A stretch of 64,000 bases of DNA, from positions 21,404,184-21,468,183 of the forward strand of contig CAIIXF020000012.1 in NCBI GenBank assembly GCA_903813345.2, in the 5' to 3' direction. A model generated the notes under the pieces. The model made no database searches and was not told where the DNA came from. It was given only the letters and a program-made list of their open reading frames with translations. Below are positions 3,521 through 55,885 of this stretch, in pieces. Source of the stretch: Owenia fusiformis. Lineage: Eukaryota > Annelida > Polychaeta > Sabellida > Oweniidae. Positions within the stretch are counted from its first letter, which is position 1; each line of letters begins with the position of its first letter. A program made the translations under genes and the position numbers.

Positions 3521-3539
3521 CCAACACATTTTAATTTGT

Positions 3540-26280: not shown

Positions 26281-28135
26281 GGTAACTGGACAAGTCGGAC
26301 CCAGGACAACTCGGACCCAGGACAACTCGGACCCTGGACAACTCGGACCCAAGACATCTCGGACCCAAGACAACTCGGACCCAAGACAACTCGGACCACT
26401 TTTTGAAATGATGATATTTACATCATAATATGGGGTTTTAATTTTTGTTTTATGTTTAGATGACATATATTATGTACTGTGCATTCATTTATTGTGTTAA
26501 TTTGATGAAATTGTTTTAAATCAACTTATTATTTGATGGTAGTTAAGAAGAAAATATTGAAGCTAAAGACCCAAGACAACTCGGACCACTTTTTGAGATT
26601 ATGATTTTTATCATGATATGGTTTTTATTTTTTATTTTATGTTTAGCATGACATATTATACATATTTTGAATTCAAATGTTGTGTTAATTTGATGTAATT
26701 GTTTAAAATCAACTTAATTGATGAGAATTAAGAAGAAAATATTGAAGCTAAAGATCCAAGACAACTCGGACCACTTTTTGAAATTATGATTTTTATCATG
26801 ATATGGTTTTTATTTTTTTATTTTATGTTTAGCCTGACATTTTATACATATTTTGAATTCAAACATTGTGTTAATTTGATGTAATTGTTTAAAATCAACT
26901 TAATTGGTGAGATTAAAGCTAAAAACCCAAGTCAACTTGGACCACTTTTTGAAATTATGATTTTTATCATTATATGGTTTTTTTTATTTTATGTTTAGTA
27001 TGACATACTCGTATATACATATTGTGAATTCAAATATTGTGTTAATTTGATGTACTCGTAATTGTTTTAAATCAACTTAATATTTTGGTGAGTTTTCATG
27101 TTCGGATCGTAATATCAGATCAGGTGTTATATCGACGCATAAACCCTTTAGGGCTAGGCACAAAAGCTTTCGGACCCTCACTCCCTTTGGCCAGTTTGGG
27201 TACAGAACGCGTTCATGCCTAGCCCTGCGGGGTTTATTCGTCCATATAACGACTGATGTTCAGTCTATATTTCTTAATTAAATGATAAAAATGAGGATTT
27301 ACAGAATACAAACACATTCCTCAATCTTTCAGTGAGATTAAGATTAAATTATCAAAAAACTTTAGGATTAACAGAATACAAACTCTTTCATTGATCTCAA
27401 TACGGCATCAATCTTTCAGTGAGATTAAGATTGAATGATCAAAAAATTGAGGATTTACAGAATTTTAAGTTTCCATTGATCTCTATGTGACATAGGTCTT
27501 TCAGTGAGATTAATAAGATTAATAAGACCGCACGGTGGTGAGTGTAAATGAGATAATGAGATTAGGATTAAAATTATTATTGTTTCAATTCCTTAGTGAT
27601 TTTCCAAATGAGTTGGTATTAACTGTATGAAAAGACTCATTGACACCTCTATATAACAAGTTGTATTCTCAACTCTCATCAAATAAGTTAATTGAAACAT
27701 CTTGTTCATCTTTACATGTAAACACAAAATATAGATTCACAATATATCTAAACCGTGTCATGCTAATCATTTATAAATAATTCCATATTATGAAATCAAA
27801 AAAGTACCTAACAAAAACTAACATTTCAGAAAGTGGTCTGTGTTGTCTTGGGTTTATAGCTTCAGTAGCTTCTACTTAATCTTTATCAAATAAGTCAAAT
27901 TAAAACATTTTAATCAAATTAGTACAAAATATGTATTCACAATGTATGATATATTTAATAAGCATAAAACAAAGACTAAAAACCCTAAACAATGATAAAA
28001 ATCATTATTTTAAAAAGTGGTCCGAGTTGTCTTGGGTCCGAGTTGTCTTGGGTCCGAGATGTCTTGGGTCCGACTTGTCCAGGGTCCGACTTGTCCTGGG
28101 TCCGAGTTGTCCTGGGTCCGAGTTGTCCGGAAACC
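26281..28135. mobile_element. Foldback element A: arms of 16-bp GGACCCAAGACAACTC repeats
   Basis: The left arm (26281-26400) holds seven or so units of the type GGACCCAGGACAACTC; the right arm (28016-28135) holds the inverted type GGGTCCGAGTTGTCTT. The termini are GGTAACTGGACAAGTC and GGTTTCCGGACAACTC (right end complemented). The flanks ACCGAGAT and GTTGAGAT share five of eight bases, a decayed 8-bp duplication. The core has four tandem copies of about 170-190 bp each starting CAACTCGGACCACTTTTTG (26388, 26577, 26762, about 26935), a hairpin at 27136-27235, and a repeat of about 100 bp at 27270-27500 (TTTCAGTGAGATTAAGATT). ORFs in the arms are repeat artefacts. Confidence 0.85.
27136..27235. 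repeat. Hairpin with a GCTAGGCA/TGCCTAGC stem
   Basis: ATAAACCCTTTAGGGCTAGG pairs with CCTAGCCCTGCGGGGTTTAT with two mismatches. It is related to the hairpin at 355-460. Confidence 0.65.
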
Positions 28136-28796
28136 GTTGAGATGCCAAACCATGAAGCCTTTTTGTGTCTGCCAAAATCCATTTGCATCCTACACATCCC
28201 TACATCTTATCCAAATATGATATTCATTAATGAAACATAACAGTATAATCTTTGTATTTACAAAGTTGTATGGGATTTCGTAAGTGTAAAAGTTGCTTTT
28301 GAAGCATTTTTCTATAGCCATTTTGTAGGAAAAAATGATGAAAAATGATGAAAAAATGTATTATCTTTTAATTTGAAGTTTGACCTGAATCGATTGCAAA
28401 CTTTATATTTGCACATCTGATGTGATATACCATTTGTGTCATATTGTGAAATTATTTAATTTGCAATTAATTCAGGTCATAGTGTATTTTTGGGAAAATC
28501 AATAGAAACCAATGGCCTCCATCGGAATCTGATGGTATCAACATGTTAAGTCAATAGAACACATCCAATGCCAAGTCAATATACCCTTGCAGAACTTAAT
28601 GACCTCAACCTCAGCCAATGTGGGTCTAAACGCTTAAATTTTTTTCAAAGTATTATGTGACATTGTATTCTTTATGATATACAGTTAAAATTGAATCATT
28701 TTATTCATGGGGAAATCATAATGGAAAGTGCACTAGACCCTTATTGTGGTTGAATATGAAATAAATAAAAAATAAAAAACAAAATGTTTTATTGCG

Positions 28797-28876
28797 ACAA
28801 GATTCGAACCCAGGCATAACGGACAAACGTGAAGTGCTAGATTGCCGAAGTGCTATCCATTACACCATAGAGACAT
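28797..28876 (-). ncRNA. tRNA-like pol III promoter remnant (possible SINE head)
   Basis: The minus strand has an A-box-like TGGTGTAATGG and, about 45 bases on, a B-box GGTTCGAATC, the spacing and consensus of a tRNA gene. The T-stem around TTCGAAT is mostly wobble pairs and the acceptor ends do not pair well, so it is not a working tRNA. An A/T-rich tail follows. A tRNA-derived SINE head or tRNA pseudogene is the likeliest reading. Confidence 0.45.
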
Positions 28877-30320
28877 GACCTTTAGACACAGTCGCCACAT
28901 AAATATAGCTCCACGTCCACTGACATGGTTTCAGACGTGGAGCTCAACTGAAAATTTTCTTTAACGTGTACTTGAGCGTGGACTTGCGCGTTCAGGTTCA
29001 CGGTTTGCATTTATACGTGTAGCTTAACCTCTCTAATATCCCACTTACCTATACCTATACGTAGTTTCTTATTGCACTAAGCGGGATTTTACCTAAGTTA
29101 CAGGGTTTGCGATACGTATTTACCTATAAATGGCCGAAGATAGGTAATTCAAATACGTATGTTTTTTTTCCCAAATACTATGTGACTTGTAGATCAAATA
29201 GCATTCAATAAACTTTAATTTAGTTATAACAAACATTTATTATTCGATCTGCATAGAAATTAGGTGGTCGAACAAAACCATTGATGCGATAAACGATGCC
29301 ATGTGATGATGCATAAAATTGTTGAATTTAGACATTTTTCATCAATTTTTGTTTTGCTCACTGTGAATGTAGAAAATTGCTCATTTTGTTTTATTTGTTT
29401 AATTTTACTATTTTGTCATTCTCATTGCTGGGTTATGCTAGAAATTAACATTTCGCCTTGAGTCACTGCCCCATTAGCAACACGTACTCCCTCCAAGCTA
29501 CACCACGCCCCCTCTCTCTGAAGTGTAAAACAGTTCTTGGTGGTGGCATATACTGGCGAACAAACGCCAAACTCACCACCGCAAGGTTTTTACCCCAAAT
29601 TAGCATGTCATTTTTATCATAAATTGTTGAATACGATTTTGTAGCCCTTTGCGTTAATCTTAAACTCATTTTACAAAGCGCATTACCTATACGTATCCCT
29701 AACAAACATACGGATAGGGATAGGTATACGTATATTTTTACGCTCATCTTAACCACCCTATTGATGCGATAAACGATGCCGTGATGATGCATGAAATTGT
29801 TGGATTTACACATTCTTCATCAGTTTTGCTTATTGTAAATGTATGAAATCGGCCATTTTCTCGTGGTTTTAATTGTTTAATTTTACTATTTGATCACCCT
29901 CATTGCTGGATCATGCTAGAAATTTAACATTTCGCCTTAAGTCACTGCCCCATTAGCGGGCCTACAAGCAACACCCCATCCCAACTACAGTAGTAGCTAC
30001 ACCACTCTCTCTGAAGTATATAACTTCTTGGAGGTGACATGTACTGGTATGTGCCATATAAGCCATCGCATGGTTTTCATTCTACAGATGTCATTTTTAT
30101 CATAAATTGTAGCATACGGCTTCGTAGACCTTTAAGTTAATCTTAAACTCATTTTGCAATACGCATTACCTATACGCATCCGTAACAAACATACGGATAG
30201 GGATAGGTACACGTATATTTTACGCTAATCTTAACCTCCCTAATAATTGTTGACGTTTTTTGCGACAGGAAAAAATATTATATGCATGCGAATTCTAAAA
30301 TAGCAGATGGATGGCCAAAC

Positions 30321-30691
30321 CTGGATGACTCTGACAGGCAGACCAGTTTGTTTTGCTATCGAATCCCTCCCGGCGCGATTCGGTCTTTTGTTCAATTGAA
30401 ACGCCTCCTTCAACGTGGTCAACGTGTCCTCTTTTATTGTAGTTCTAGGCCCCCTGCGTCTGTTGTACGTTGAGAACCTAGGACTCTCACCGTCATTTCC
30501 GTCGAGTGAACTGGCCATGTCGCTATCGCTTTCAAATTGCGACATCATGCCTGACTGATCTAGTTGCTTTAGAAATACGATGTTATCAACATTACTGGAC
30601 ATTCTGAATGCAAAATAAGGGTGTGCTCTGTTTGAGTTGTTCCAAAATGTCAGTTCCTGTCTTTGATCTGCATCCAAATCAGAATCTTCGT
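30321..30691 (-). CDS. LIM-homeobox gene exon 3: linker and homeodomain residues 1-46
   Basis: After the acceptor GAAGTTTCAG the frame reads D-EDSDLDADQRQELTFWNN, an acidic/Ser-rich linker with FESDSDMASSLDGNDGESPR, and then RRRGPRTTIK at homeodomain positions 1-9. Canonical residues R5, L16 and F20 are present. It ends GLPVRVIQ followed by the donor CCAG/GTTTGG. GPRTTIK and RVIQ are typical of Lhx1/5. Helix 1-2 residues (EDTLTTLKEAFQLNKRPNRA) are divergent. The intron at homeodomain position 46/47 is a site used in several homeobox classes. The exon is 371 bp and the phases match exons 2 and 4. The adjacent mobile element ends 77 bp past the donor. Confidence 0.9.
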
Positions 30692-30882
30692 CTGAAACTT
30701 CAAATCACCGGGTGGGAACGTCTAATTTTGTGAAGGCCTTGGAGCATAACATTTTACTAAGAAATGTCAGTAATTTTTCTCAATTGCAATTTGTTTTTTT
30801 TTTTATCTTGAACATGAAAGCCACTTTATGTTGGAAAATGGAAATAATAAACCACCCACGCAATGCCTCTTCCAATCACATT

Positions 30883-31212
30883 GTTCCACAACTAATTACT
30901 TTGACGGAACGTCAATGTAACAAAATGGATAAACTTCCCGGTTGCGAGTTTTCTGTTTTCTTGAGTTAAACCTTCTTATAAGTCAAGTTGCAGATTATAA
31001 TTTGACACAAAGCTAAAAATGTAACTTCTAGTTTTAATAAGTTTCTTCGATTTGGAATTTTAAATGAAGTTGCAATTCATATATTTAGCCCCTCGCTTTT
31101 GTTACATTGACAAAGTTCGCTATATTACCAATGTAAAAACTCGTATCCAGGAAGTCCATCCATTTTGTTACATTGACGTTCCGTCAAAGTAACTAGTTGT
31201 GGAACAGTGAAT
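30883..31212. mobile_element. 330-bp MITE with 75-bp terminal inverted repeats
   Basis: GTTCCACAACTAATTACTTT, GACGGAACGTCAATGTAACA and AAATGGAT...ACTTCC on the left are mirrored at 31137-31212 with few mismatches. AAT flanks both ends, a possible 3-bp duplication. It lies in intron 2 just upstream of exon 3. The 85-residue frame at 30712-30969 overlaps the arm and is not a gene. Confidence 0.75.
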
Positions 31213-31959
31213 CATTATGCTGCAATAATTTTGTTGGAAGCCAATTCGAATACGAAATTACTGACAACTGCAGAAACGATTCTAAAACATCCAGGATAGC
31301 CATAGTACTGATATATACATTTATTATATCAACTCTATACACCCCTGTTTAGATTCACTCTTAAACACATTTATTTAATAATCAATATATCTATTGAAGG
31401 ACCCTGAATTGGTTTGAAACCCGAGCAGTTTAGCTGCATCAGATAATCAAAACATTTATATCATTTACAGTATAAACACAAGAGATTGTTCAAAGGAGTA
31501 TTTATTACCTATCAATCAATCAATTTTATTTTTTCAAAAATGGCAGGTTTAATCTTTTCTATTTCTTAATCATTAGTAAAATGTAAACGTTAGTGTGTCA
31601 AAGGATTTTAAAAGGAGGACAAATGCTGGAGATACAACTGAAGATTCCTTTTTTTATAATGGATTATTTTTTAAATTAGACCACTGCTGAAATCTCAAAT
31701 AAATAAAAATCTGTAATGTTGTGTAATGCTCAACAAATTTAGAAACACTCAATGATGATATTATAACATATATTAACTAATTTAAATCGTTAGACTGTAA
31801 CATTAAACTTTAAGAAAAATTGAACAGCATTCAATGAGTTATACCACCCACTTTGAGTTTGGAGTCCATTTTGATATTATTTTGCAGTTGAAATCATATA
31901 AAATGTGCTTGCTATCAAAGATTTTATGATATTTTTGCTTATTTATTATATATCTAAAA
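31213..31959. other. Unassigned intronic sequence
   Basis: AT-rich, no frame, repeat or RNA recognised before the LINE relic begins. Confidence 0.5.
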
Positions 31960-32198
31960 GAAAACTTCAGCAGCAGGAATAGATGATCTTAAACCTGATG
32001 TAACGAAACAATGTAACAATGAACTTGTCAAACCACTTTTACATATATTTGATAAATCGTTTCAAAAGGGAATTTTTCCTGATAAACTAAAAATATCAAA
32101 AGTAACTGCGGAAGGAAGGAACAAATTAACCTCTTTACCAATTATAGACCAATTTCAGTTCTTCCAGTATTCTCAAAGGTTTTGGAAAAATTAATGTA

Positions 32199-33110
32199 CA
32201 GGGGGTATCAAAAAAACGCAACAAGTAGTTATCTCGTAAAATCACAAAATTAGTGATGACTACATCAATTTCATTTAATGTACCATAGAGCCACGTCTCC
32301 CCTCTTTGTAATGATATGTCATTCATTCACATGTGGTAATGGTTGGGTGAGAAATCCTTCCATTTGCACAGTGGGTCAAAATCGGCTCTGCACCAAGTTT
32401 TAGATATTGAAAAAATCAGTGCAAGGGCTAAGTGCCAATGGCAGTTCCCCTGACTTGAATTGTTGTGACTTTTTCTTTTGGAGCTATCTCAGGAGCATCT
32501 GTGCTCACAATTCCTCCACCAGATATTGCAAAACCTCGAGAAAGATTTGCCCATGGGCTGCTTTTCTTTGCTTTAACCCACACATGATTCAGGGCTGAAC
32601 CGTGCATGACGTGGACAGATGAGCGCATCTTTATGTGCAAGGAAGTGGTGGCAATTTGGAGGGGTATAGGTCTAGGATGTTTTCTTGCAAGAGTATGAGT
32701 ATGAACACTTTACTGTCTATGCCATACCCGTCACACCTTCTTCCAATAGCCCCTATGCCCCCTGTACTGACTTTTGCAATGTTTTAAATTTGGGTCCGAG
32801 CTGTAATTTGGCTTTTGGTACATTGAATTAAAAGGATACATTCAGCATTTCTTTTATGTTTTCGTCCAGTATTGCATCGGGCTCCGTACACTGACTTTTG
32901 CAATGTTTATAACTTGGCCCGAAGCTAATTTTGACCCACTTTGCAAATGGAATGATTACTCGCCCAACCATGACCAAATATCAATGAATGATATATCATT
33001 GTAAAGAGGAGACACATGGCTTCATGGCGCATTGAATGAAATCAATGCTGTTATCACTGGCTTTGTGCTTTTCCAAGATAACAATCTGTTGCGTTTTTTG
33101 ATACGCACTG
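32199..33110. mobile_element. Mariner-type element with long TIRs inserted in the LINE
   Basis: Termini are CAGGGGGTATCAAAAAAACG and CGTTTTTTGATACGCACTG, with TA flanks at 32197-32198 and 33111-33112. The inverted repeats are long, about 190 bp (ATTTCATTTAATGTACCATA pairs with the complement near 33030). A repeated ACTGACTTTTGCAATGTTT (32764 and 32889) is internal. The LINE frame continues across the two ends. Confidence 0.85.
32440..32700 (+). pseudogene. Mariner/IS630 transposase C-terminal relic
   Basis: The frame contains SSPDLNCCDFFFWSYLR, matching the SPDLNP.DFF.WGYLK block at the third catalytic acidic residue of mariner-like DDE transposases, followed by SICAHNSSTRYC and KICP. Stops follow at 32596 and later. 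Only the C-terminal third is present, so the element is non-autonomous. Confidence 0.7.
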
Positions 33111-34784
33111 TATAATCGAATGAGCATCAATTTATCACTAAATTTGAAATTTTGTACCAATTTGGGTTCAGAGAGAAAAGGTCAACATACATGGCTGTTT
33201 TGCATAATATGGGGTAACACAAATCCCACAACGCTTAATCCATTACACTTGATACAGAAGAGGTTTGTGAGGTTGGCAACTCACATGGCTATACAGACCA
33301 CAGTCAACCACTTTTTAAAGAGCTTAGAATCATACAAATACATGTACATGATATTTATAAAATCAATATTGCTGAATTTGTATTTAAATGGAAAAATAAT
33401 ATCAACAATAATAAAGCTATTTTCCCGACTATTTTAAAACCCACGGAGATTTTCATAGATATAATACAAGAGGCAAATTAAACGTCACCCTTCCTTAAGC
33501 AAAAACTGACAATTATGGCAAAAAACAATAGCCTTTAGTGATTCATCCATCTCCCAGAAGAAATGTCAAATTCAAGTTCTTATCTTAAAGGCAGAATCAA
33601 ATCTATGGGGGTGACAAAACTGCAAGGTGCAAGCAACATGTACATATTGACCTACCAATCTATTCTTTACAATCTCAAATACAATATCTCCCAAAAGATT
33701 TAAGATATGTTATTTTGTTATAATGGATTCAAAGTGCAAAAATGGGTAAAAATGTTCTCCCAAATAATAAGAATGGTAATCATTCTTATAGAAAATAAAA
33801 AATCTTTAGTTTTCCTGATACAAAGTGTGCACTTGGGGGATTTTTAGAAAATGGACATGAAAAGGAATGACATAATCCAGAAATATTCTAAAATTGAAAC
33901 AATTTCTTGTTTGGCTGCTCGCTAGATCTGATTCTCTCTTTAAATCACAGAACCGAAGAAGCACATTCTCTCAGCTTATTAATCATTGGTTGACTATATC
34001 ATTTGGGCCGACCTGGGGGCTGCTCCGAACTTCTGAAGATTTAACAAAATAATTCTGATCGTACCAACCTTGGGGAAGTTACCATAATAACTAATGTTTT
34101 ATAAGAATTACACTTTTAAAGATTGTTGACGTCAACGCGGTAGCCTGGCGTTTTTAAATAATAATTAATGAAGCTACACATTCATGAAATTTTCCCATGG
34201 TATATGGCACCTTCTTGGCTTCAAAAGAAACGAGGATCATGGATCCCCCACAACTTTATTTATTGTAACCAACTTTTGTGATAACATTCTGGTTTGATTC
34301 CTTGACAACATAATGATGCACATCATGATTTAACTACTATATGTACGGGTATAAGCATCACCTGTGGTGCCACCTGTGTCCACTGAATAAATTGAAATTG
34401 AAACTTTCAATACAAAAAACTCTCTTGAAAAATGACCCCTGTGTAATCCCAAATTAATAATGAAAGGTAATGTTGTGTGATGCTCAACATGCAATACTAT
34501 GTTCAGTGATATTAAATCTACCAATACGATCTGTTTACAACAGTGGTGCTTCGACGGAGTGAAGTTATTAAAAGTTTGTCAATTCCTTTAGTATTATCTT
34601 AGATGGATTTTTTACTGCAACGACCCGAAGCAAAAATAGAAAACATGAAGACAAAAACTCAAATGACAGTGACACAAGGAAATCGTTTTAGGGTATACAG
34701 GGTCCTTTTTATGGAGAAAATTAAGTTGTTTTGTTTGTGAATATCGGTTCTGGGATGTAGATATTGAAAATATATGGTACTATG

Positions 34785-35828
34785 ACTTTGGGTTAAGTTG
34801 ACAAAGGGTTGAGATGATTTGGGTTGAGTTGACTAAGGGTTGAGATGACTTGGGTTGAGATGAGTTGGGGTTAAATTGACTAAGGGTTGAGCTTACGCTT
34901 CCTGGTCAACCCAACCTAAGTCAACTCAACCCTTAGTCACCTCAACCCCAAGTCAAGTCAACCCCAAGTCATCTCGACCCTCAGTCAACTCGACCTCAAG
35001 TCATCTCAACCCTTGGTCAACTCAACCCTTAGTCAAGTCGACCCCAATGATTTTACTTGTTTTAAGTAGGTTAAAATACAATATAATATATCATTAAATA
35101 GTACTTCCTAAAAATATTTTGATGGTATATGATTTATTAAAGGAATAATAAAAAATCATGGTAAAGGTAAACTTTCCTATTTTAATCCTATTTGATTAAT
35201 GCAATTTCTTCCCTAATTCAAAAAAAATATTACATTGAGAAAATATACTGTATTATAGACTTTTTGATTTAAAGATAATTTTAGAAATGAATATTGAAAT
35301 AGCTGTTGATACACTGAGAAATAATAATGGTAAATACGATATTCAATTCATTTACCCAAACAAAACATTGAACAGAAGAAAAACTGTAAGTTTTCAGTAT
35401 TTATTATTCAGTAAGTTATTCAGATGATTGAAAATTTAAAAACATAAATCCCATTGTTTGTTCAGTCTTGTTATAAAATCTAACTTCAAAAAATTTCGTT
35501 TCTGAAATTTAGCATTCTAGTCCCTCATTCTTTCAAAATTCATCAATATCATACCATGAAAGGTACATTTATTTGTTTTTATGGTGGGGTAAAGTTGACT
35601 AAGGGTTGAGATGACCAAGGGTTGAGATGACTTGGGGTCGAGTTGACTAAGGGTTGAGATGACTTGGGGCCGACTTGACTAAGGGTCGACTTGACTTGGG
35701 GTCGACTTGACTAAGGGTTGAGTTGACTTGGGTTGAGTTGACTTGGGTTGAGTTGACTTGGGGTTGAGTTGACCAGTTACCGAGATTACTTGGGTTGATT
35801 TGAGTTGGGGTTGAGTCTACCAGGAAGC
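34785..35828. mobile_element. Foldback element B', right arm only, split by element B
   Basis: Units of GGGTTGAGATGACTT type at 34785-34890 and again at 35790-35818 are in one orientation. They end in ACTCAACCCC-type sequence (complemented) plus ACCAGGAAGC at 35819-35828, the complement of element B's left terminus GCTTCCTGGT. Element B is inserted between the two parts. No left arm of B' is seen. Confidence 0.6.
34897..35781. mobile_element. Foldback element B: arms of 15-16-bp GGGGTTGAGTTGACTT repeats
   Basis: Left arm 34904-35045 (AAGTCAACTCAACCC type) and right arm 35585-35781 (GGGTTGAGTTGACTT type, about 12 units) face each other. Termini are GCTTCCTGGTCAAC and GGTAACTGGTCAAC (right end complemented), 11 of 14 identical. 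The flanks GAGCTTAC (34889-34896) and GAGATTAC (35782-35789) match at seven of eight, an 8-bp target duplication. The core (35046-35584) is AT-rich with no coding sequence. Confidence 0.8.
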
Positions 35829-37640
35829 TATTGAAAATAGATGATAGTTATGATGACGTCTTGCAATCTTTTAACATTAGGCCCGGTCGATGGGATCACT
35901 TGGTGGCATTTGTTCACATTAATCTACTCTGATATAAAACTAGTATATCACATGAATAACGGACTCGGCATGGAGTTTTCCATTCGACTATGCTTTGCTT
36001 CGATTGGTATGGGTCGTAAACACTCATTCAAAGAATCGCTTTTGGTTCCAAATGTTTTAAATGGCCAACGTTTGATTATCTGATGCAATTGATCCGGGTC
36101 CTTCCCATTTTTGAATATAAATAAAACAAATCGGGGGCATATATTAGAAATAATAGGTATACAAACTATTCTGGACATTTTCCTTTAAAAGCCTCCACGA
36201 AAATATACTGTAAAAAGATGTAATGTATGTTCTCATCTAAAGGAGGAAATAAAGAAACATAAACTGTAAAAGGTTATTATAGAAAAACGATCTTTCGGAG
36301 AGTAGGACGTCTGCATGGGATGGTTTATTTTAAGTCCGAGATGATATGTATTTAAAGTTAAAAATGAATTGTATGAGATTATTATTTTTTCTTACTAAAA
36401 TTTCATGCTCCGTGAAGTCTTCCCAAAATGAGAAGTTCTAACCTCGTGAAAAACGATATCAATAAAAAATTAAACGTTTTACTAGAATCAAATATCATCA
36501 ATTACATATAGCTGGAATTATTATACAAATATGTACTTAATATAGCGGCATTGTACGATAGCCTATATACTGTCAGTACATTATATGTTTTAACATGAAT
36601 CATACGAGGGGTGATCCAAAAGTCATGGACGCCCTGCTCTTAAATGCTGTTGGTTTTTGATAAAATTTCTCAAAACTCTCCAATAATAAAGACCAACAAC
36701 CTAACTATTTTTGTATTAATTTCATGCCGAGAATATTTAAAGTATTTTTCTAGATAGATTTTAATATAGGGACCCTGCCACCCGAAACGGTATTCACACA
36801 TGGCAACTTTCAGCCTTAAATATTGCTCCTATCTGACTTGTTTCGCAAACCAAACCCCCTAAATAGATAAAAATTAAGATAAATCTTTTATTTCATTAAA
36901 GATGCACTCTACCATAGGTTTCTATTAGTGTGGGGAATACCCGTTGAGTCACACAAACGCGCACAGGCTCCTTGAACCAGGCAGCCAATCAGGTTCATGA
37001 TAAACAAATTCAAACTTTCCTTTGTACTATTACAATATTGAGAGACCTAAACACGCTGTGTTTATGTCGTTTTGTTCCAATGAGGTTCGGATAGATGTTT
37101 CATTTCAATGCGAACATATGATACCAAGAATAAAATAAGTGTCTGATGTTTTTTCTAAAACAATATAGAGAAAAGTATAAATATTTTTTCAAGCGTTATT
37201 ACTACCATTCAAAAGATGACCATTAAATTGACGATATGTAGAATTTTCAGAATTTTTTGATGACTGGTTTAAGAGAAACGTGTGTTCAAAAAGTTCACCA
37301 TATCGACACACTCCTTTTGAAAATTTTTACAGATTTTATAAGATGAATTTGAATTTCTTTTAAATAAATTTGATTTTTAAAAGGAATCTTTATTTTTCAT
37401 AAATATTTTGAAAAAAAAAACAATTGGATGTTTACAAAAGTTAAATCCTGTTTTTTAAGCTTTTAGATTTTAAATAAGTATGTTGAGAATTTTCATATGT
37501 TTGTTCAGATTTAGAAAAATAAAATTGATTTTTTTAAATTTGTTAAAAACGTCCCTTTTAAAGCTATGTCCGTTCAATACATTTTAACTTTTCTTCATTC
37601 GTCTTAATGTTTTCTCATCTGCCACGTTGGGTTACACTGA
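35829..37640. other. Unassigned intron 2 sequence with a mariner terminus remnant
   Basis: No gene recognised. CGAGGGGTGATCCAAAAGTC at 36604-36623 looks like the outer end of a mariner-type element, but no partner terminus was found. The 80-residue frame at 35841-36083 and its antisense partner have no family resemblance. Confidence 0.45.
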
Positions 37641-37654
37641 ACGAAATAACTTTC

Positions 37655-37700
37655 AGGGCAAATTCCAGGGAGCGGTGAATACCGCTAGATATTCACCGGT
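37655..37700. repeat. GGTGAATACCGCTAGATATTCACC palindrome region (related to 61870-61905)
   Basis: The stretch AGCGGTGAATACCGC followed by TAGATATTCACCGGT is partly self-complementary (GGTGAATA/TATTCACC). A diverged version (CGGTGAACACCGC, AAGATATTCACCGAT) with similar flanks (ACTGAACAAAAT/ACTGAACGAAAT) occurs at 61836-61905. Confidence 0.5.
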
Positions 37701-37940
37701 CTAATTTGATATGCATGACCAGAATAGCGCCAGACGTTCCATGACATATAAATGTATTTCAAAGTAAAGCTTGATAATTTAAATTAATTTTTAATTCTAA
37801 TTTTTTATCTAAAAAAGCTAATCATCGCGTTTTGCGGCAATATCGATTTTTCAATATCGATTTATCCAGTGTATCACTATTAGCGATAACATTCCAGTTA
37901 TCAAAACTATTGCTATTAGCGCTTTTTAGTCTGGGTCATA

Positions 37941-38804
37941 CACTCCCCTCCATAAGTTTGGCAACCTTTTTTCCCCATTGAACTACGTGTTAAAGCCTCT
38001 TTACGTTTGAATTTTTATTTACTTAACCGGCGATGAAATAACTTATAATATTGATGGAAACGTAACTTGACTTTATTTCCAATACCTCCAAATTTTCTCA
38101 ATTTTTTCCTCAATTACAATAGGTCGAAAATTGATGATAAATTTGATGAATTTTTGAAAATCGTCATTCCCATGTAATCCAATGGGAAATGGAGGGTTCG
38201 GGGCAAATCAGAAATCAGGATATCTTTTCAGTAAAAGATTCAGCAAAAAATATTTTTATATAGAAAATTGAACTTTTTTGAACACCAAGTGTTTAGTTTA
38301 TTTGATGAATATTAAAGTTACAGCGCTTCAAAGTCATTTTTGAAAATAATTTTCCGCCTCCTGTGTTATTTCAATGGGAGAGGTTTTTTGAAAAACAATT
38401 TTGACTTTAAAGCCCTATAACTTTGTTGAACCTGAAGAAACATATCAATATTTTGTTAAATAAAGTTAGCAAATTCAATTGCCTGCCTAACTCGTATTTT
38501 TTGCAAGGACTCGGATGGATGGATATTCTGTCATATGACTTGCGGCAAACCTACCATTTCCCATTGGTTAACATGGGAATCTCGATTATCAAAAATTCAT
38601 CAAATTTATCATCAATTTTCGACCTATTGTAATTGAGGAAAAAATTGAGACAATTTGGAGGTATTGGAATTAAAGTCAAATTACGTTTTCATCAACATTA
38701 TAAGTATTTTCATCGCTGGTTAAGTAAATAAAAATTCAAAGGTAAAGAGGCTTTAACACGTAGTTCAATGGGGGAAAAGGATGCCAAACTTATGGAGGGG
38801 AGTG
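37941..38804. mobile_element. TA-flanked foldback element, complete 864-bp copy
   Basis: Termini CACTCCCCTCCATAAGTTTG and TATGGAGGGGAGTG, flanked by TA. The inverted arms are about 235 bp. Part of the interior (GGGGCAAATCAGA...GATATCTTTTCAG...GATTCAGCAAAAAATATT) is clearly related to the arms of the TTAA-flanked element (13040-13130, inverted). The copy at 1-239 matches its right arm. Confidence 0.8.
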
Positions 38805-38819
38805 TATGTTAATAAAAAC

Positions 38820-39485
38820 AGAGCATCGTTAAATTAGCATTAGCAGATGATCAAGGATAATATCGCCATTATGCAATATATAAATATAACGATAATTAAC
38901 GATAAGCTCAATATTATCAAAGTCATCACTACTAGCAAAAGTATTGATAATATCATCTGCTAATTATAATCCATTCAGTCCTATGTTAGAACCAACAAAG
39001 TACACCTGAAATTAACATCAGATAATATCGTTATTAGCAATAAGAGTGATCGTTTTGATAAAATTGCTATTTGTATTGCAAAACAATTTAGGTTTAGAGT
39101 ATAAGTTAGAACCAACAGGGCACTGTACACCTTAAATTAGCAATATTATCACAAATATCACTATTTTCGCAAAATTCAATTGGCCTAGAGTATACTCATA
39201 TGCTAGAACCAACAGGGCACTGTACACCTTAAATTAGCAATATTATCACAAATATCACTATTTTCGCAAAATTCAATAGGCCTGGAGTATACTCATATGC
39301 TAGAACCAACAGGGCACTGTACACCTTAAATTAGCAATATTATCACAAATATCACTATTTTCGCAAAATTCAATTGGCCTAGAGTATACTCATATGCTAG
39401 AACCAACAGGGCACACCTGGAATTAGCATTATCAGATAATATCGATACTAGCGATAATATCAATATCATCAAAATCGCGTTTTGC
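38820..39485. repeat. GATAATATC-rich sequence with a 97-bp tandem repeat
   Basis: AGAACCAACAGGGCAC marks unit starts at 39108, 39205, 39302 and 39399, an exact 97-bp period with very few differences. A diverged unit is near 38988. The surrounding sequence is rich in GATAATATCGAT-like palindromes, which also occur at 37826-37930 (ATCGCGTTTTGC occurs at both 37826 and 39475), so the foldback at 37941 probably landed inside this repeat. It lies directly next to the exon 2 donor. Confidence 0.75.
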
Positions 39486-39501
39486 TATAATCTATTTGTA
39501 C

Positions 39502-39704
39502 CTTGTTTCAATGTTTCCATGTAGTCTTCTTTGCAGAGAACAGCATGAGTTTTTAAGACATGTACGTGGTCTCCGGGAAAAAAGTCCTTGTTACATCTGG
39601 TACATTTAAAACACCGTAGGTGGAAGACCTTATCCGATGTCTTGTGGACCATATCCGTTGGTAGGATACCTTTAGAGCAGATGTGACACGGATGCCCGAA
39701 ACGT
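39502..39704 (-). CDS. LIM-homeobox gene exon 2: second LIM domain
   Basis: The acceptor TTCTTTATTTAG and split Arg codon give RRFGHPCHICSK, continuing ILPTDMVHKTSDKVFHLRCF, KCTRCNKDFFPGDHVHVLKT and VLCKEDYMETLKQ, then CAAG/GTACAA. Zinc ligands are C70-x2-C73-x18-H92-x2-C95 and C98-x2-C101-x19-C121-x2-D124, a complete double zinc finger. The FYRRFG junction is the conserved boundary between the two LIM domains of Lhx1-type proteins (FFRRFG in Lhx1). The exon is 203 bp, entering in phase 2 and leaving in phase 1. Confidence 0.93.
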
Positions 39705-39952
39705 CTAAATAAAGAAAACAAAATGCATGGTTTCTCATATAAACATTATATAGTTTCCGTTAAAAAAGAAAACATTCCCAAATTGTCCTAGTTCCTATTG
39801 ATACCTACTTTGCCCGAACTGTGTATGACTAATTTATTTGTATTTTTGGTCTATGTGTTTTTTTTAGGGAGTAGTCATTAAAGATATACATTTGAGCAAT
39901 ATAATAGTGATTACTTTAGTACTAAGTATGTTTGAAAAAGCTCGAACAATAA

Positions 39953-40346
39953 CACTGGTACTGCACTATTCAAACTTGTTACCAAAACGGATTCGTTTCG
40001 GTTACAAAATGTCGGACAATCGAAGGTACGATTTTTCTTTTTTCCTTATTTAACGAGTTGTAAGCAGAATTCCAACAACGTTTTCATCAAAAACGTGTGT
40101 CAGTTATCATATGTTTAGAAAATCAACACATTTGCGAACAAATCATTCAGAAGACAATTTAGATCGACTTAATACCTCTCTATTACCACGTAGACGAAAT
40201 GGGTTAAAAATGTATATGTGAACCGTTTTAGAGAGCTATATCTCGAGAAATCTAGAAAAAGGAAAAATCTTTCCGAATTTTCCGGCCAGAACCGTAGCCA
40301 CCTTGTTACCGAAATGGATCCGTTTCGGTAACAGTGAGTACCAGTG
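39953..40346. mobile_element. Foldback MITE with CACTGGTACT termini
   Basis: Ends CACTGGTACTGCAC and GTGAGTACCAGTG, with subterminal GTTACCAAAACGGATTCGTT pairing with the right-hand GGATCCGTTTCGGTAAC. The interior (ACAAAATGTCGGACAATCGA, GCGAACAAATCATTCAGAAG) is homologous to 3794-4384. It lies in intron 1. Confidence 0.75.
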
Positions 40347-40421
40347 AATGAGTGCTACGGCAATGTCCACTTTTCCGCAGTGTGTAGGAGTGCAGAAGGT
40401 TCATATGCATGTGTCGTGTAA

Positions 40422-40561
40422 TGCCTTGGTCACATTTGCTTCGATCCATCGGCCGGCGCCCGCCCGATTGAGTGTTTTGTTCAATATTGTATTCAATTTT
40501 GAACAAAATACTCACTCGGCCGGGCGCCGTAGATAAAATCGGAGGAAATGTGACCAAGGCA
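40422..40561. mobile_element. 140-bp Harbinger-type MITE, complete
   Basis: Perfect 16-bp TIR TGCCTTGGTCACATTT / AAATGTGACCAAGGCA, flanked by TAA on both sides (40419-40421 and 40562-40564). Inner palindromes GGGCGCC and CCGATTGAGT/ACTCACTCGG let most of it fold back. It shares GTCACATTT with the CACCCCAGTCACATTT family, suggesting related transposases. Confidence 0.85.
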
Positions 40562-40959
40562 TAAGACGATGAAGAGATTGATCATCTCGATGACTTAAAA
40601 TTAAACGTATTTATTATTACGTAAAAGCCTGAAATATCAATCTATTTTACATAATTTCCTCAATTTTGGACACACACTCTGCGCATCCTGACACATTCTT
40701 TAAAGCCTTTACGGAGTCCGTCTCGACTCAGCCTGTTCAACACGTGTGAACGCAATGCATTCTCAAATGCATGTCCTCTCAAATCCCGTTACAATTCTTC
40801 ATACAGCAAGTAGACATCATTTGTTGAAAAAGATGGATGCTGAGTTGCTCTAATTCCAACTACTCAAGTGATTACCCTAGTGATGATGGCCGCTTTGTGA
40901 AGGCGCCATTTTGAAATTTGAAATCAAAACTGCATTTTAACTGATCGGTATTTGCCTTT

Positions 40960-42650
40960 CAGACCCAGCAAAAATATCTGAAAAATTCAACGATCCCCAT
41001 GCTAAAATTGAAAAGCCGTAGAATTTTCTTAGGAATCTGAATCCGCAAAGAAAATGTCGACCCGAGTCTCAAAATATCGCTGTTTTAGTATCTCATGTTA
41101 AGTCAATTGGCCAAAGAAAATTACGAATTGTAAAAATACGAGATACAGACTGGACACAGCTAAACTTAATGTAAGCTTGCAATAGGAAGAGGACCTGAAA
41201 AGCTACTTTGCTTCAAAATCTGGAAACTAAAATTGCAAACATACAACACGAGATACAGACTATAATTGATGGAAGCCTACCATAGAACAGGACCTTAAAA
41301 GCTACTTTACTTTGAAATTTGGACAGAAAACCTAAGGTCAAAATCTAGGTTAAATTTACAGGTTTCCTTACCTTTGCAATTCTGACACTATACTTTCGTA
41401 ATAGTCTTCGAAATTTTGTGTACTGATAGCCAAAAGTATGCTAATAGTTTTATCATCAGAGAGTGTTTCTACCTTCTTTTGAGACATGTTGTCCGGAAAG
41501 AAGTTCAAAACAAAAAGTTCTCCAAATTTTCTCAGGAATCGAAATCTGCAAACCGAATTTTGATCCGACTTCCGCTTTGGAAGTGGTTTCTAGACAACTC
41601 ATCCCAAGACAACTCATCCCAAGACAAGTCATCCTTAAGACAACCCATCCCAAGACAAGTCATCCCCAAGACAACTCGTCCCAAGAATCTCATCCCAAGA
41701 CATCTGATCCCAAGACAACTCATCCCACTTGTACAATTGATACATTATTTTGTCCTCTATATTATATATCCCTTTTTCATTTTTATGATTACAAAGTGAT
41801 TTTTGATTACACACTCAATTTTTAATACTGAGTTTTAGCATTTTGAAATGGCACTTGAAAGTTATGTTTTACTTGTAAGTACTGTCGCTATTTTGATTAA
41901 TTCTGGGTAATTCTAAATATATTTGAGAAAATAGAATTGAACATAAAAGTCATAAACATTATTGAAATTTGACAGTTTGAAATTGGCAATCTTATTTAGG
42001 ATTAAGCCAAAATATTTTAAAACAAAGACTGAATTAATCTGAGAGAATTATTTTGATAGCACCTTGGATAATACATTCTGAGTTAATCCTACACCTTTGA
42101 TGATCTTTGATTTAATAATCATATGTTTATCTTTATCCCAATCAATCAACAAAAATTAACTAAAACAAGGCTAAACTAACTACAAAATTCAAAAATATTA
42201 AGTAAATACAGCATGACAAAATATCAAATGTGTCAGTTTAAAATACAGAATGAAAAACGTAATAAAAAACAAAGATATTCCATGACAAGTGTGCTAACTG
42301 CTAAAATCTCTAAATATTTTTCATTCTTTCAAAAGTGAAAATTAATGAGATGTCTTGGGATGAGTTGTCTTGGGATGAGATGTCTTGGGGATGAGTTGTC
42401 TTGGGATGAGTTGTCTTGGGATGAGTTATCTTGGGATGAGATGTCTTGGGATGAGATGTCTTGGGATGAGATGTCTTGGGGATGAGTTGTCTTGGGATGA
42501 GTTGTCTTGGGATGAGTTGTCTTGGGATGAGATGTCTTGGGGATGAGTTGTCTTGGGATGAGTTGTCTTAGGGATGAGTTGTCCTGTTACCTTGGAAGTT
42601 ATGGCGTTTAGAAATTTTATGATAATATCCCATGTTAGTCTTTTTTTGAA
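40960..42650. repeat. Old diverged copy of the 470-bp repeat of the 51-61 kb array, split by element C
   Basis: The phrases AGGACCTTAAAAGCTACTTT, GGTCAAAATCTAGG, AATTCTGACACTATAC, TTCTCAGGAATCGAAATCTG and CCGACTTCCG occur in the same order as in the 51-61 kb units but with many substitutions. The copy resumes at 42592 with TTGGAAGTTATGGCGTTTAG and fades near 42650. Confidence 0.7.
41585..42591. mobile_element. Foldback element C: arms of 15-16-bp GGGATGAGTTGTCTT repeats
   Basis: The left arm (41595-41735) has about nine units of the CCCAAGACAACTCAT type. The right arm (42348-42586) has about 15 inverted units. Termini are GGTTTCTAGACAACTC and GGTAACAGGACAACTC (right end complemented). The target duplication TTGGAAGT is perfect (41577-41584 and 42592-42599), and the interrupted repeat is continuous when it is removed. 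The core (about 600 bp) is AT-rich and non-coding. Reading frames in the arms (SQDNSSQDNSSQ) are repeat artefacts. Confidence 0.9.
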
Positions 42651-50960: not shown

Positions 50961-53606
50961 AGACTCCAGATTGAAAATCTGGAGTCTATTGCTTTTGCCA
51001 GTTTTCTTTATTATTAGACTCCAGATTGAAAATCTGGAGTCTATTGTTTTTGCCTGTTTTCTTTATTAGACTCCAGATTGAAAATCTGGAGTCTATTGTT
51101 TTTGCCTGTTTTCTTTATTATTATTTTTCTTTCTTTTTTCTTCCTCCTCACCAAATTTCTCGTCAACTATAACAGCTTACTTAATCCAACTTACATGGTT
51201 AACTAAAGACTGAAACCGGCTTTCTGGGAAATTAGGTCAAATTTTTATCTAGGTCAAAGGTCAAGAACTAGGTCAAATCTTACATTTTCAACATTCTTCA
51301 TCATATCTTCGTCAATATTCTTTGTAACTCCTTCATCTTTTTTTCATCGTGTAGCTTAGAAAAAGGCGAATCAAAGATATGACATCAGAATTTTGATTAC
51401 TTTTACCGATTTTGAGATATGGCGTCCGAAATGTAGGTCACGCCTAAACATGCTCCAAATCGAATGTGTGAGCTATGAAAAAGATGTAAAATTTTCTCAG
51501 GAATCCAAATCTGCAAACCAAATTTGGATCAGACTTCCGGTCCGGAAGTTATGGCGTTTTGAAAGCTCAAAAATCGCTAAATTTGGTGCCTATGTTAAGT
51601 CAATGGGAAAAAAGACTTATTCAAAGTGTAAAATACAGGATATTGACTGAGTACAGCTTAACATAATGAATGCTTATAAAAGAAGGGGACCTCAAAAGCT
51701 ACATAGCTTCAAAATTTGGACACCAAAATGCCTAGGTCAAAATCTAGGTCAAATTCATAGTTTTTCCTTATTTTTACGATTCTGACATTACACTTTAATA
51801 ATTTACTTCAAAATTTTGTATACAAGTAGCAAAGAGTGTGCTAATAGTGTTAGCCTTTTGCCGTCAGAAAGTATTTTGACCCACTTTTGAGATATAGTGT
51901 CCGAAAAGTAGGTCAAAATAAAAAGTTTTCCAGATTCAACGTATGAGTTATAAATTAAGGGTAGAATTTTCTCAGGAATCCGAATCTGCAAACCAAATTT
52001 CGATCCGACTTCCGGTTCGGAAGTCATGGCGTGTCCAAAAAGTAGGTCAAAATAAAAAATTCCAAATTTAACGTATAAGTTATGAATTAGGGGTAGAATT
52101 TTGTCAGGAATCCGAATCTGCAAACCAAATTTCAATCCAACTTCCGGTTCAGAAGTTATGGCGTTTTGAAAATTCAAAAATCGCTAAATTTGGTGCCCCA
52201 TGTAAATTCAACAGGAAAAAATATTTTTTTGAAGTGTAAAATACGAGATATAGACTTAGCACAGCTAAACATAATGGAAGCCCATAAAAGAAAGGGACCA
52301 CAAGACCTTCTTTTCATAAAAATTTGGACACCAAAATGCCTAGGTCAAAATCTAGGTCAAATTCAAAGTTTTTTCTTATTTTTGCGATTCTGAAACTACA
52401 GATTAATTATATTCTTCGAAATTTTGTATACATGTAGCCAACAGTGTGCTTATAGTGTTAGCCTTTTGCCGTCAGAAAGTATTTTGACCCACTTTTGAGA
52501 TATGGTGTCCGAAAAGTAGGTCAAACTAAAAAGTTCTCCAAATTTAACGTATGAGTTATGAATTAAGGGTAGAATTTTCTCAGGAATCCAAATCTGCAAG
52601 CCAAATTTCAATCCGACTTTTGGTTTGGAAGTTATGTCGTTTGAAAGCTCAAAAATCGCTAAATTTGGTGCCCCATGTTATGGCAATGGGAAAAAAGATT
52701 TTTTTGAAGTGTAAAATACGAGATAAAGACTGAGTACAGCTTCACATAATGAAAGCCTATAAAAGAAAGGGACCTCAAAAGCTAGCTAGCTTCACAATTT
52801 GGTCACCAAAATGCCTGGGTCAAAATCTAGGTCAAATTTATAGTTTTAACTTATTTTTGCAATTCTGACACTACACTTTAATTATTTGCTTCAAAATTTT
52901 GTATACAGGTAGCAAAGAGTGTGCTAATAGTGTTAGCCTTTTGCCGTCAGAAAGTATTTTGACCCACTTTTGAGATATAGTGTCCGAAAAGTAGGTCAAC
53001 ATGAAATTTTCTCCAAATTTAACGTATGAGTTATGAATTAAGGGTAGAATTTTCTCAGGAATCCGAAACTGACACCTGGTTTGAAAGTAATGGCGTTTTG
53101 AAAAATTAAAAAATTGGTATTTTGATATCCCATGTTATGTCAATTATCTTTGTCACTATCCGTCGTTATTCCTTTATCTTTTTTTCAGCATGTAGCTTAA
53201 AGACAGTCCTTTCATTATTGTAACTGTCTTTTTTGATTACTCTTACCGATTTTGAGGAATGGCGTCCGGAAAGTAGGTCAACATAAAAAGTTCTCAAAAT
53301 TTAATGTATGAGTTATGACACAAACGTAGAATTTTCTCAGAAATTCGAATCTGCAAACCAAATTTCGACCCAAATTCTGGTTAGATAGTAATAGCTGTTT
53401 GAAGTCTCGAAAAGTCGATATTATGATATCCCCATGTTAAGCCAATGTAGACGAAGATAAGCTACTTACGAGTTGTCTAAATGTCTGTATTCTAGATGAC
53501 TCAGCTTATTCTGAATGGCTCAGCTTACAGTATTTTGGATGACTCAGCTTAAAAAAAGTTTTAAATCTGGAGTCTTAAATTGAACTTGTTCAATTTACAT
53601 GTCTAG
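50961..53606 (+). mobile_element. Helentron-like unit 1 with triplicated 5' hairpin
   Basis: The 5' end is AGACTCCAGATT-GAA-AATCTGGAGTCT, a perfect 12-bp hairpin, repeated at 50961, 51016 and 51068. The 3' end has the inverted motif AAATCTGGAGTCT (53563-53575), then the hairpin AAATTGAACTTGTTCAATTT (53577-53596), then ACATGT and CTAG (53603-53606). The body has three copies of a unit of about 470 bp, marked by TTTTGCCGTCAGAAAG at about 51858, 52467 and 52941. Asymmetric TIRs, a 3' hairpin plus CTAG and internal tandem repeats fit Helentron/HINE elements. No Rep/helicase is present. Confidence 0.65.
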
Positions 53607-53614
53607 TTATTATT

Positions 53615-55885
53615 AGACTCCAGATGAAAATCTGGAGTCTATTGCTTTTGCCAGTTTTCTTTATTATTATTCTTTCAGAATCTTCCTCCTTCCCAGATTT
53701 CTCACCAACTAGAAGAGCTTACTTTAAGCTGCTTACATGATTAACTAGGGAATGTATCTGGGATGATGGGAAATTAGGTCAAATTTTTTATCTAGGTCGA
53801 AGGTCAAGAACTAGGTCAAATCCAGTACTTTGTCACTTTTTCCCATTATCTCGGTCGTCCTTCAATATTTTTGATCCTGGTTTTTTTCATTGTGTTCCTC
53901 ATAAAAAAGTAGAAAACCTAGGATCGATTTAGTTTTTTGGTATCTCAAACCGATTTCGAGATATCAGTGTCCGAAAACGAGGTCCAAAAAATATTTCACC
54001 GAATCCAATGTCCAGGATATCAGTCTTATAGGAAATTTTCTCAGGATTCCGAATCTGAAAACCAAATTTCGATCTGACTTCCGGTTCAGAAGTTATTGCG
54101 TTTTGAAAATTCAAAAATCGCTAAATTAGGTGCCCCATGTTAATTCAATGGGAAAAAATATTTTTTTGAAGTGTAAAATACGAGATATAGACTAAGCACA
54201 GCTAAACATAATGGAAGCCCATAAAAGAAAGGGACCACAAGACCTTCTTTTCATAAAAATTTGGACACCAAAATGCCTAGGTCAAAATCTAGGTCAAATT
54301 CAAAGTTTTTCCTTATTTTTGCGATTCTGACACTACAGATTAATTATATTCTTCGAAAATTTGTATACATGTAGCCAAGAGTGTGCTAATAGTGTTAGCC
54401 TTTTGCCGTCAGGAGGTATTTTGACCCACTTTTGAGATATGGTGTCCGAAAAGTAGGTCAAACTAAAAAGTTCTCCAAATTTAACGTATGAGTTATGAAT
54501 TAAGGGTAGAATTTTCTCAGGAATCCAAATCTTCAAACCAAATTTCAATCCGACTTTTGGTTTGGAATTTATGTCGTTTTGATAGCTCAAAAATCGCTAA
54601 ATTTGGTGCCCCATGTTATGGCAATGGGAAAAAAGATGTTTTGAAGTGTAAAATACAAGATATAGACTGAGTACAGCTTAATATAATGAAAGCCTATTAA
54701 AGAAGGGGACCTCGAAGGCTACTTAGCTCCAAAATTTGGACACCAAAATGCCTAGGTCAAAATCTAGGTCAAATTTATAGTTTTCCCTTATTTTTGCGAT
54801 TCTGACACTATATTTAAATGATTTGCTTTAAAATTTTGTATACAGGTAGCAAAGAGTATGCTTATAGTGTTAGCGTTTTGCCGTCAGAAAGTATTTTGAC
54901 CCACTTTTGAGATATGGTGTCCAAAAAGTAGGCCAAAGTAAAAAGTTTTCCAAATTTAACGTATGAGTTATGAATTAAGGGTAGAATTTTCTCAGAAATC
55001 TAGATCTGTAAACCAAATTTCGATCCGACTACTTGTTCTGAAGTTTAGGCGTTTTGAGATCTCAAAAATCGCTAAATTTGGTGCCCCATGTTAAATCAAT
55101 GGGACCGAATAATTTTTTGAAGTGTAAAAATACGAGATAAAGAATGAGTACAGCTAAACATAATGAAAGCCCATAGAAGAAGGGGACCTCAAAAGCTACT
55201 TTCCTTCAAAGTTTGGACACCAAAATACCTAGTTCAAAATCTAGGTCAAATTCATAGTTTTTTTTTATTTTGCGATTCTGACACTACATATCAATGATAT
55301 TCTCCGAAATTTTGTATACTTGTAGCAAAGGGTGTGCTAATAATGTAACATTTTGCCGTCAATAAGTTTTTGACCCACTTTTGAGATATGGTGTCCGAAA
55401 TGTAGGTCAAAATAAAAAATCTCCAATTTCAAAGTATGAGTTATGAATTAGGGGTAGAATTTCCTCAGGAATCCGGATCTGAAATTAAAATTGCAATTCG
55501 ACCTCCGGTTTAGATTCTACGCCATTTTGAAGTTTGAAATTCGCACTTGCCAGTATTCACCTATTCAATATACTTTCAAAAATTCCTGCATACCCTACTT
55601 TACCTATCTACCTACTCAGCTACTTATTTGACTACTTACTCAATTACTTAATTAGTTATTACTTACTTAGCAACTTACTCAGCTACTAACTCAGGTACTT
55701 ACTCAGCTACTTACTCAGCTACCTACTCAGCTTTTTACTCAGTTACTTACTCAGCTACTTACTCAACTACTACTAAGGTACTTACTCAGCTAATTACTCA
55801 GTTACTTACTCAGCTCTTTACTGATCTATCTAGGTCAAATAAATCTGGAGTCTTAAATTGAACTTGTTCAATTTCACAAATCTAG
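53615..55885 (+). mobile_element. Helentron-like unit 2
   Basis: It starts AGACTCCAGATGAAAATCTG immediately after the CTAGTTATT end of unit 1. It ends AAATCTGGAGTCT, hairpin (55855-55874), CACAAAT, CTAG (55882-55885). TGCCGTCA markers are at about 54406, 54885 and 55361. Before the 3' end is a 12-bp-type microrepeat (TACTTACTCAGC) at about 55600-55820. Confidence 0.65.

Follow-up and report, generated by a model that had tools for sequence, protein, structure and literature searches.

In the 64,000-nucleotide stretch of Owenia fusiformis DNA analysed here (the window; assembly GCA_903813345.2, contig CAIIXF020000012.1, positions 21,404,184 to 21,468,183), three foldback elements, A, B and C, have arms built from short tandem repeats that share one framework and differ in a central block. 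This raises the questions of which transposition system such elements belong to and how related elements come to carry different repeat units. From their sequences, we classify A, B and C as transposase-less copies belonging to three sibling families of foldback transposons, all Phantom-type Mutator-like elements (MULEs). The overall explanation that we consider very probable is that several such families, each with its own transposase lineage, carry arrays that are read by the transposase. Of the six unit types distinguished, five are found physically joined to a transposase gene, whole or fragmentary, from a lineage of their own, with FLYWCH and MULE domains where it is intact.

Repeat framework and unit types

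The arms of A, B and C are arrays of 15- or 16-bp units (TRF), and the unit reads, on the opposite strand, CAACTC-NNN-CCC followed by a linker of mostly three or four bases. When the genome (498 Mb) was searched, exact TCC-type units gave 73 matches and tandem unit pairs with a CTTGGG linker gave 486, rising to 1283 with a looser pattern, whereas the reversed-pattern controls of both tandem-pair patterns gave none; these tandem-pair matches count unit pairs rather than elements. The common framework with a block differing between elements, as described in a first-pass annotation of the window, is found genome-wide and is not a product of chance. Six unit types were separated among the loci read (L numbers), drawn from about the first 100 places of each tandem-pair search and thus from part of the genome: TCC-a (the type of A), TCC-b, TAC, ATG-a (the type of C), ATG-b and TTG (the type of B). 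Odd or mixed arrays were also present (L038-L042).

The same annotation had held the block to be homogeneous within each element, which is true of A (GGA in 14 of 14 parsed units) and nearly so of C (ATC in 23 of 24) but fails for B, where the centres alternate (13 AAC, 6 GAC and 2 other among 21 units). The mixture in B is a family trait, since GAC and AAC account for 88 and 81 of the 172 TTG-type centres. All the other types are largely homogeneous: GGA in 117/120 units of TCC-a and 30/31 of TCC-b, GTA in 107/115 of TAC, and ATC in 86/89 of ATG-a and 103/108 of ATG-b.

Transposases joined to the arrays

Transposases lying between such arms, which the first-pass annotation had suggested seeking, were found, for example at L004, L021 and L022. 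L004, with TCC-a arms, has a frame of 599 residues matching MULE (E 2.4e-10) and FLYWCH (E 3.4e-6); L021 and L022, whose TCC-b arms are flanked by perfect target duplications, each have one frame of 617 residues between these arms, the two frames being 99% identical; and L023 has a frame of 631 residues with an ATG-b arm found on one side. MULE (PF10551) scored above the Pfam cut-off in L004, L021 and L023, and FLYWCH (PF04500) in these three and in L006, a broken TCC-a copy. Among the zinc-finger and D-D-CxFH-E patterns searched, five were present in L004, six in L021 and four in L023, the second D and the E of L023 being identified by eye. An N-terminal PHD-like finger in L021 (E 0.0012) scored 19.2 bits, under the 24-bit Pfam cut-off, and was weaker in L023; the seven PDB matches to the N-terminal finger were all Pygopus PHD entries (E 0.007-0.09). 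Framework arrays were present at 12 of the 21 transposase-bearing loci read:

L004, L006: TCC-a arrays
L021, L022, L032: TCC-b arrays (L032 a decayed relative)
L023, L024, L026: ATG-b arrays
L025, L034, L061: TTG arrays (L025 and L034 transposase fragments)
L029: TAC array

Arms and perfect duplications flank the transposase on both sides in L004, L006, L021, L022 and L024. In total, five transposase lineages were found, each linked to a single unit type (for two lineages, via decayed or partial copies only), and identity between lineages was 37-65%, varying with the copies and the stretch compared. The single transposase system proposed in the first-pass annotation thus gives way to five diverged lineages, with none found for the unit type of C. 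It might still be supposed that one transposase moves the families of A, B and C alike and that the unit type is irrelevant to it, as the termini are alike across families (one terminus, GGTAACTGG, occurs in both TAC and TTG) and the C family, having no found transposase, may be cross-mobilised. However, the attachment of one unit type to each of five lineages speaks against this, and we consider it improbable.

The transposases also bear on the relatives suggested earlier, namely Galileo-type P elements, hAT and Merlin. Duplications of 8 bp and Galileo-like foldback arms would suit them, but the transposase between the arms is of the MULE/FLYWCH kind, and no P, hAT, Merlin or THAP model was among its Pfam matches. 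These relationships are refuted for the copies read, and as an explanation of the system we regard them as having almost no chance of being right.

Genome searches listed 33 matches to the L004 frame and 38 to the L023 frame, and a search with PF10551 gave at least 7 matches among 39 candidates scored, two of which (C11, C9) lie outside the sibling families. Other coding sequence occurs in three long copies, within the element itself or elsewhere in what was read: L002 has Gypsy-like, L003 gag/protease-like and L023 mariner-type sequence. The Gypsy-like polyprotein frame of L002 (1364-6343), which has a SCAN-domain match, lies within a TTG element. At L030 (C11:14058200-14064700; 1732-6057) there is a distant MULE that shares 23-28% identity with the intact siblings. 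Its arms consist of a different 15-bp unit, CCCATTTCGCCCCTT, which starts with GGT and whose tandem pairs have 15 genome matches, two of them in L030; no target duplication was recognised by eye for this family. A further 15-bp array, CATTGTACCGAAAAG, stands beside a GGGATAACCCC end at L035 (1718-1826) and L030 (1796-1874), and perhaps represents a third array-bearing transposon family.

Termini and target duplications

Among 41 two-ended elements, 32 had a perfect duplication of 8 or 9 bp, compared with 0 of 1640 mismatched left/right flank pairs. Three of the 32 duplications were 9 bp long (L002, L012 and L051) and the other 29 were 8 bp. The 41 form a non-random sample, three coming from the window and the rest being chosen for visible arm pairs or a transposase. 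In this set, B, L001, L019 and the cross-locus pairs L053/L054 and L055/L056 were entered by hand, and internal-unit pairs were removed by hand; it covers the loci before the later-added L061-L067. Left out were loci with a single terminus (L003, L029, L032, L036, L040, L041, L042, L050, L058 and L060), those with no recognised terminus (L023, L028, L030, L033, L034, L035, L037, L038 and L039) and L027, with two spurious matches. L001 carries TTATTCTC on both sides and falls outside the 32 only because its start was set one base off, and 7/8 matches were found in B, L008 and L013. Genome copies as a rule have fixed termini and duplications, and we therefore reject the view that the arrays are ordinary satellites.

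The two ends differ: end 1 is GGTAAC-like, and end 2 resembles GGTTTC, GCTTCC, GGTTCC or GGCTTA. The terminus mentioned above as common to the TAC and TTG families is an end 1. In 9 of 10 loci the gene runs from end 2 towards end 1 (hand-made table; three of the nine judged on one end). The copy at L057 464-1073 shows that a difference between the ends is not obligatory, as it pairs two end 1 termini with a perfect 8-bp duplication. By eye, L061 includes one element with end 2 at both ends. In addition, at C1:44767842-44782857 (L053/L054), TTG ends 15.0 kb apart are flanked by the perfect duplication ATCACACC, giving a very long element.

Elements A, B and C in the window

Direct reading of termini and flanks confirmed the earlier description of A, B and C as real elements with fixed, polarised termini; the coordinates were exact, and the flank matches were 5/8, 7/8 and 8/8, as first reported. 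Their interiors, taken from 200 bp inside each terminus, gave no mutual blastn match at 1e-8, in agreement with the earlier statement that the cores are unrelated. The features are as follows.

26281 to 28135: element A, transposase-less copy of the TCC-a family; end 1 (GGTAAC) left, end 2 (GGTTTC) right
26281 and 28135: left and right termini of A, GGTAACTGGACAAG and GGTTTCCGGACAAC
26281 to 26397, minus strand: left arm of A, terminus and 7 parsed units of CAACTCGGACCC type
26378 to 27054: inner-arm domain of A, tandem copies of about 171 bp, each starting with a unit (TRF)
28019 to 28135, plus strand: right arm of A, 7 parsed units of GGGTCCGAGTTG type
34782 to 34891: left piece of an older TTG-type array hosting B (TRF)
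34897 to 35781: element B, TTG family; end 2 (GCTTCC) left, end 1 (GGTAAC) right
34897 and 35781: left and right termini of B, GCTTCCTGGTCAAC and GGTAACTGGTCAAC
34897 to 35047, minus strand: left arm of B, 9 parsed units with AAC and GAC centres mixed
35593 to 35781, plus strand: right arm of B, 12 parsed units
35782 to 35828: right piece of the older TTG-type array, stopping at an end 2 motif (GCTTCC)
41577 to 41584, plus strand: target duplication of C, TTGGAAGT, with a second copy at 42592-42599
41585 to 42591: element C, ATG-a family; end 2 (GGTTTC) left, end 1 (GGTAAC) right
41585 and 42591: left and right termini of C, GGTTTCTAGACAAC and GGTAACAGGACAAC
41585 to 41727, minus strand: left arm of C, 9 parsed units, mostly 15 bp
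42345 to 42591, plus strand: right arm of C, 15 parsed units

Element A is flanked by ACCGAGAT and GTTGAGAT; neither the window nor the loci read yielded an empty site for its joined flanks. Its interior has DNA in common with L004-L007 and L043-L046, all of the TCC-a family. The core of A also contains an internal inverted repeat at 27140-27236 (TAAACCC..AGGGCTAGGCA / TGCCTAGCCCTGCGGGGTTTA), with similar letters beside L004, which probably represents a small, unrelated inverted-repeat element.

Element B, flanked by GAGCTTAC and GAGATTAC, was inserted into an older TTG-type array, as its joined flanks align at about 82% to the L001 and L060 arms across the junction. Directly after that array, TATTGAAA occurs at 35829, with a second occurrence at 34762. 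The interior of B has parts in common with L001, L002, L025, L057 and L059.

For C, the joined flanks run uninterrupted through the insertion point when aligned to repeats of the window, among them those at 51489-51564 (87-90%), the best empty-site alignment being 76 bases at 89%. The sequence that hosts C is similar to repeats lying between 51 and 61 kb of the window, and the interior of C matches L016-L018. The window contains at 51897-61014 a large field of tandem repeats of about 475 bp and about 132 bp, to which the C host sequence is similar. Core searches of the genome, self included, gave at least 52 pieces for C (40 of 117 candidates scored) and at least 79 for B (40 of 106 scored). 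A homeodomain exon lies on the minus strand at 30240-30677 (PF00046, E 9.7e-11).

Inheritance of the arrays

The first-pass annotation proposed that the arrays are homogenised as a whole. This may apply, at best, to the founding copy of a family. The order of centres AAC x3, GAC x5, AAC x2, GAC (11 units) is exact in 8 of 18 TTG arms, where it is seen at both kinds of end in different copies with linkers differing at few places, and a short second linker is present in 10 of 10 ATG-b arms; arrays are thus inherited as blocks. When end 1/end 2 pairings were shuffled within each of six families, similarity within a copy was significantly in excess only in TCC-a (0.044 vs 0.058, p 0.028 uncorrected, n=9 elements). 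It was not significant in TTG (p 0.14, n=7), TAC (p 0.44, n=11) or ATG-b (p 0.90, n=5), nor in TCC-b (p 0.49, n=2) and ATG-a (p 1.0, n=3), for which the test has little power. L018, L025 and L051 (fewer than three parsed units on one side) and L057 (two end 1 termini) were excluded from the arm comparison. Constant homogenisation in every copy is therefore not supported, being significant in one of six families before correction while unit order is inherited in TTG and ATG-b.

Because both arms carry much the same array in the families other than ATG-a, one arm was likely, judging from these comparisons, copied onto the other at or near the family origin. In ATG-a the ends are distinct (end 1-end 2 0.082, end 1-end 1 0.015, end 2-end 2 0.045).

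Arrays might instead be passengers without a binding role, generated at foldback ends by slippage and by exchange through hairpins. This would suit the spread in parsed units per arm, between 1 and at least 21 in arms followed for up to 330 bases, and the duplications kept by L051 and L025 with a two-unit arm. However, passengers should drift, and the same framework is kept in five families though their transposases are only 37-65% identical; we hold the passenger explanation to be unlikely, if slightly less so than the other alternatives weighed here.

Possible co-divergence of array and transposase

In transposase trees, the split of {ATG-b, TTG, L028} from {TCC-a, TCC-b, TAC} had ultrafast bootstrap (UFBoot) support of 100 without an outgroup and 95 with L030, and TCC-b joined TAC with UFBoot 100 in both cases. 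TTG was represented by one 181-residue fragment; rows shorter than 150 residues (L032, L033 and L034) were left out, the later trees were made without L027 and L035, and one without L030. This well-supported split coincides with the third base of the centre, C for ATG-b and TTG and A for TCC-a, TCC-b and TAC, but five families divided 2|3 at random would fit one of the two internal edges with probability 0.2. With five families compared, co-divergence of centre and transposase is a lead and not a proof.

Several observations weigh against transposase-read arrays in sibling families. First, whole-arm distance did not track transposase distance (Mantel r 0.12, 46/120 permutations as high), which leaves co-divergence over the whole unit unsupported, and the three-base centre alone followed transposase distance only weakly (r 0.61, 8/120 permutations). 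Second, the links between arrays and genes are uneven: those of TTG are fragments, one of which (L061) is a C-terminal piece beside, and not clearly between, TTG arrays; that of TAC is one decayed copy (L029) with a TAC end 1 and two units; and no transposase for the ATG-a type of C was among the loci read. Third, at 7 of the 21 transposase loci (L027, L028, L033 and L062-L065) no arms were seen in the stretch read, nor for L028 in its flanks (L066/L067), and two others (L030 and L035) have other 15-bp arrays. Finally, 5 of the 41 elements have no convincing duplication (A 5/8, L031 6/8, L055/L056 4/8, L026 and L048 2/8 each), the gene of L025 runs in the opposite direction, and the arrays of L040 and L042 are mixed.

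Proposed mechanism

We propose that the N-terminal zinc fingers of the transposase (the PHD-like finger and FLYWCH) would bind the repeated units, that the short terminus would serve as the cleavage site, and that the DDE core would cut and paste the element; transposase-less copies, A, B and C among them, would be moved in trans. A new unit type could originate as a joint change of array and transposase in one master copy, and transposition would then spread it. The presence of the same array on both arms may reflect occasional copying of one arm onto the other, by gene conversion or inverted-arm recombination, rather than constant homogenisation in every copy, and L057 is the outcome expected of such copying or exchange.

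The arrays could also bind a different factor encoded by the element or the host, an anti-silencing protein for instance, as VANC does on the Arabidopsis VANDAL elements, which are also MULEs. The motifs bound by VANC are short, are arranged as tandem repeats and vary from one related VANDAL to another (PMC5735166). In the window, AGTTGTCC, the VANC6 motif, is present six times, always in the arms of A and C (26304-26336, 28105-28121 and 42577), but this match is post hoc and probably a coincidence. Moreover, no second frame of at least 150 residues was found inside the L021 and L022 elements (a count that passes over shorter frames and split exons), and the arrays adjoin the termini at both ends, like those of Tm1 and Muta. 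We therefore give this alternative little probability in comparison with reading by the transposase.

A stronger form of the transposase-reading proposal is that the three-base block and linker act as a specificity code, each sister transposase reading only its own block via its PHD-FLYWCH head, so that families would be mutually insulated and would separate as array and reader changed together. We regard this as possible but doubtful. If true, it would be the VANC/VANDAL principle, but within the transposase itself. The five lineages, with their own unit versions on a common framework, are ready matched and mismatched pairs for testing whether the enzyme reads the unit.

Comparison with known systems

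The elements were assigned to Phantom-type MULE foldback transposons on the basis of domains, duplications and arms rather than of placement in the MULE tree. The Mutator/Phantom-type features (MULE domain, FLYWCH finger and duplications of the 8-10-bp class) are present, and so is the foldback (type 2) design of long inverted arms of short tandem repeats. The Phantom subclass of Mutator likewise combines FLYWCH and MULE with 8-10-bp duplications and, in some members, FB-like arms (PMC3169594, PMC6446971). There is a close likeness to Tm1 of the root-knot nematodes (Meloidogyne), a Phantom-type Mutator/Foldback element, which has asymmetric 7-bp motifs, generally a different one for either end, arms in which 13-15-bp units are repeated in tandem a variable number of times, a FLYWCH and MULE transposase, 8-10-bp duplications, and mostly copies like miniature inverted-repeat transposable elements (30/39 in M. 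incognita) (PMC3169594). Tm1 also includes one same-ended copy, which lacks a duplication (PMC3169594); the same-ended L057 has one. In contrast to the present elements, Tm1 has another unit sequence and duplications most commonly of 9 bp, compared with mostly 8 bp here, and its description as accessible names no PHD-like finger (PMC3169594).

Muta5, a MULE of Aedes aegypti, resembles our elements in its nine 15-bp units and 8-bp terminal motif, but no cross-family unit framework is reported for Muta in the accessible account, and Muta transposases have 416-554 residues, compared with 599-631 in the open frames here (PMC5225508). Rehavkus is likewise close to MULEs and has a repeat array near one end, and its PHD finger has a candidate counterpart here in the N-terminal finger that scored under the Pfam cut-off, but it differs in its 9-bp duplications and a minisatellite before the 3' terminal inverted repeat, with FLYWCH unlisted in the accessible text (PMC6446971); that combination is not found here, where duplications are mostly 8 bp and the arrays form arms at both ends. 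VANDAL elements are MULEs whose tandem short-motif arrays change together with a DNA-binding protein, but there the reader is an anti-silencing protein and not a transposase (PMC5735166). The THAP domain of Galileo binds sites in the Galileo arm repeats (PMC3688188).

The design is thus already known, Tm1 and Muta1/Muta5 being close matches, and the earlier statement that no described family has it cannot be upheld. Overall, the first-pass interpretation is partly supported. What is new is the occurrence, in one genome, of sibling families whose array types are tied to transposase lineages; such ties were unmentioned in the titles and abstract openings of the best-matching literature, with subscription papers mostly outside that coverage. 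The sea urchin TU elements, described in the 1980s, also have foldback arms with outer 15-bp tandem repeats, 8-bp duplications and modular centres. To our knowledge, a transposase of these elements has not been found, and our findings may bear on them.

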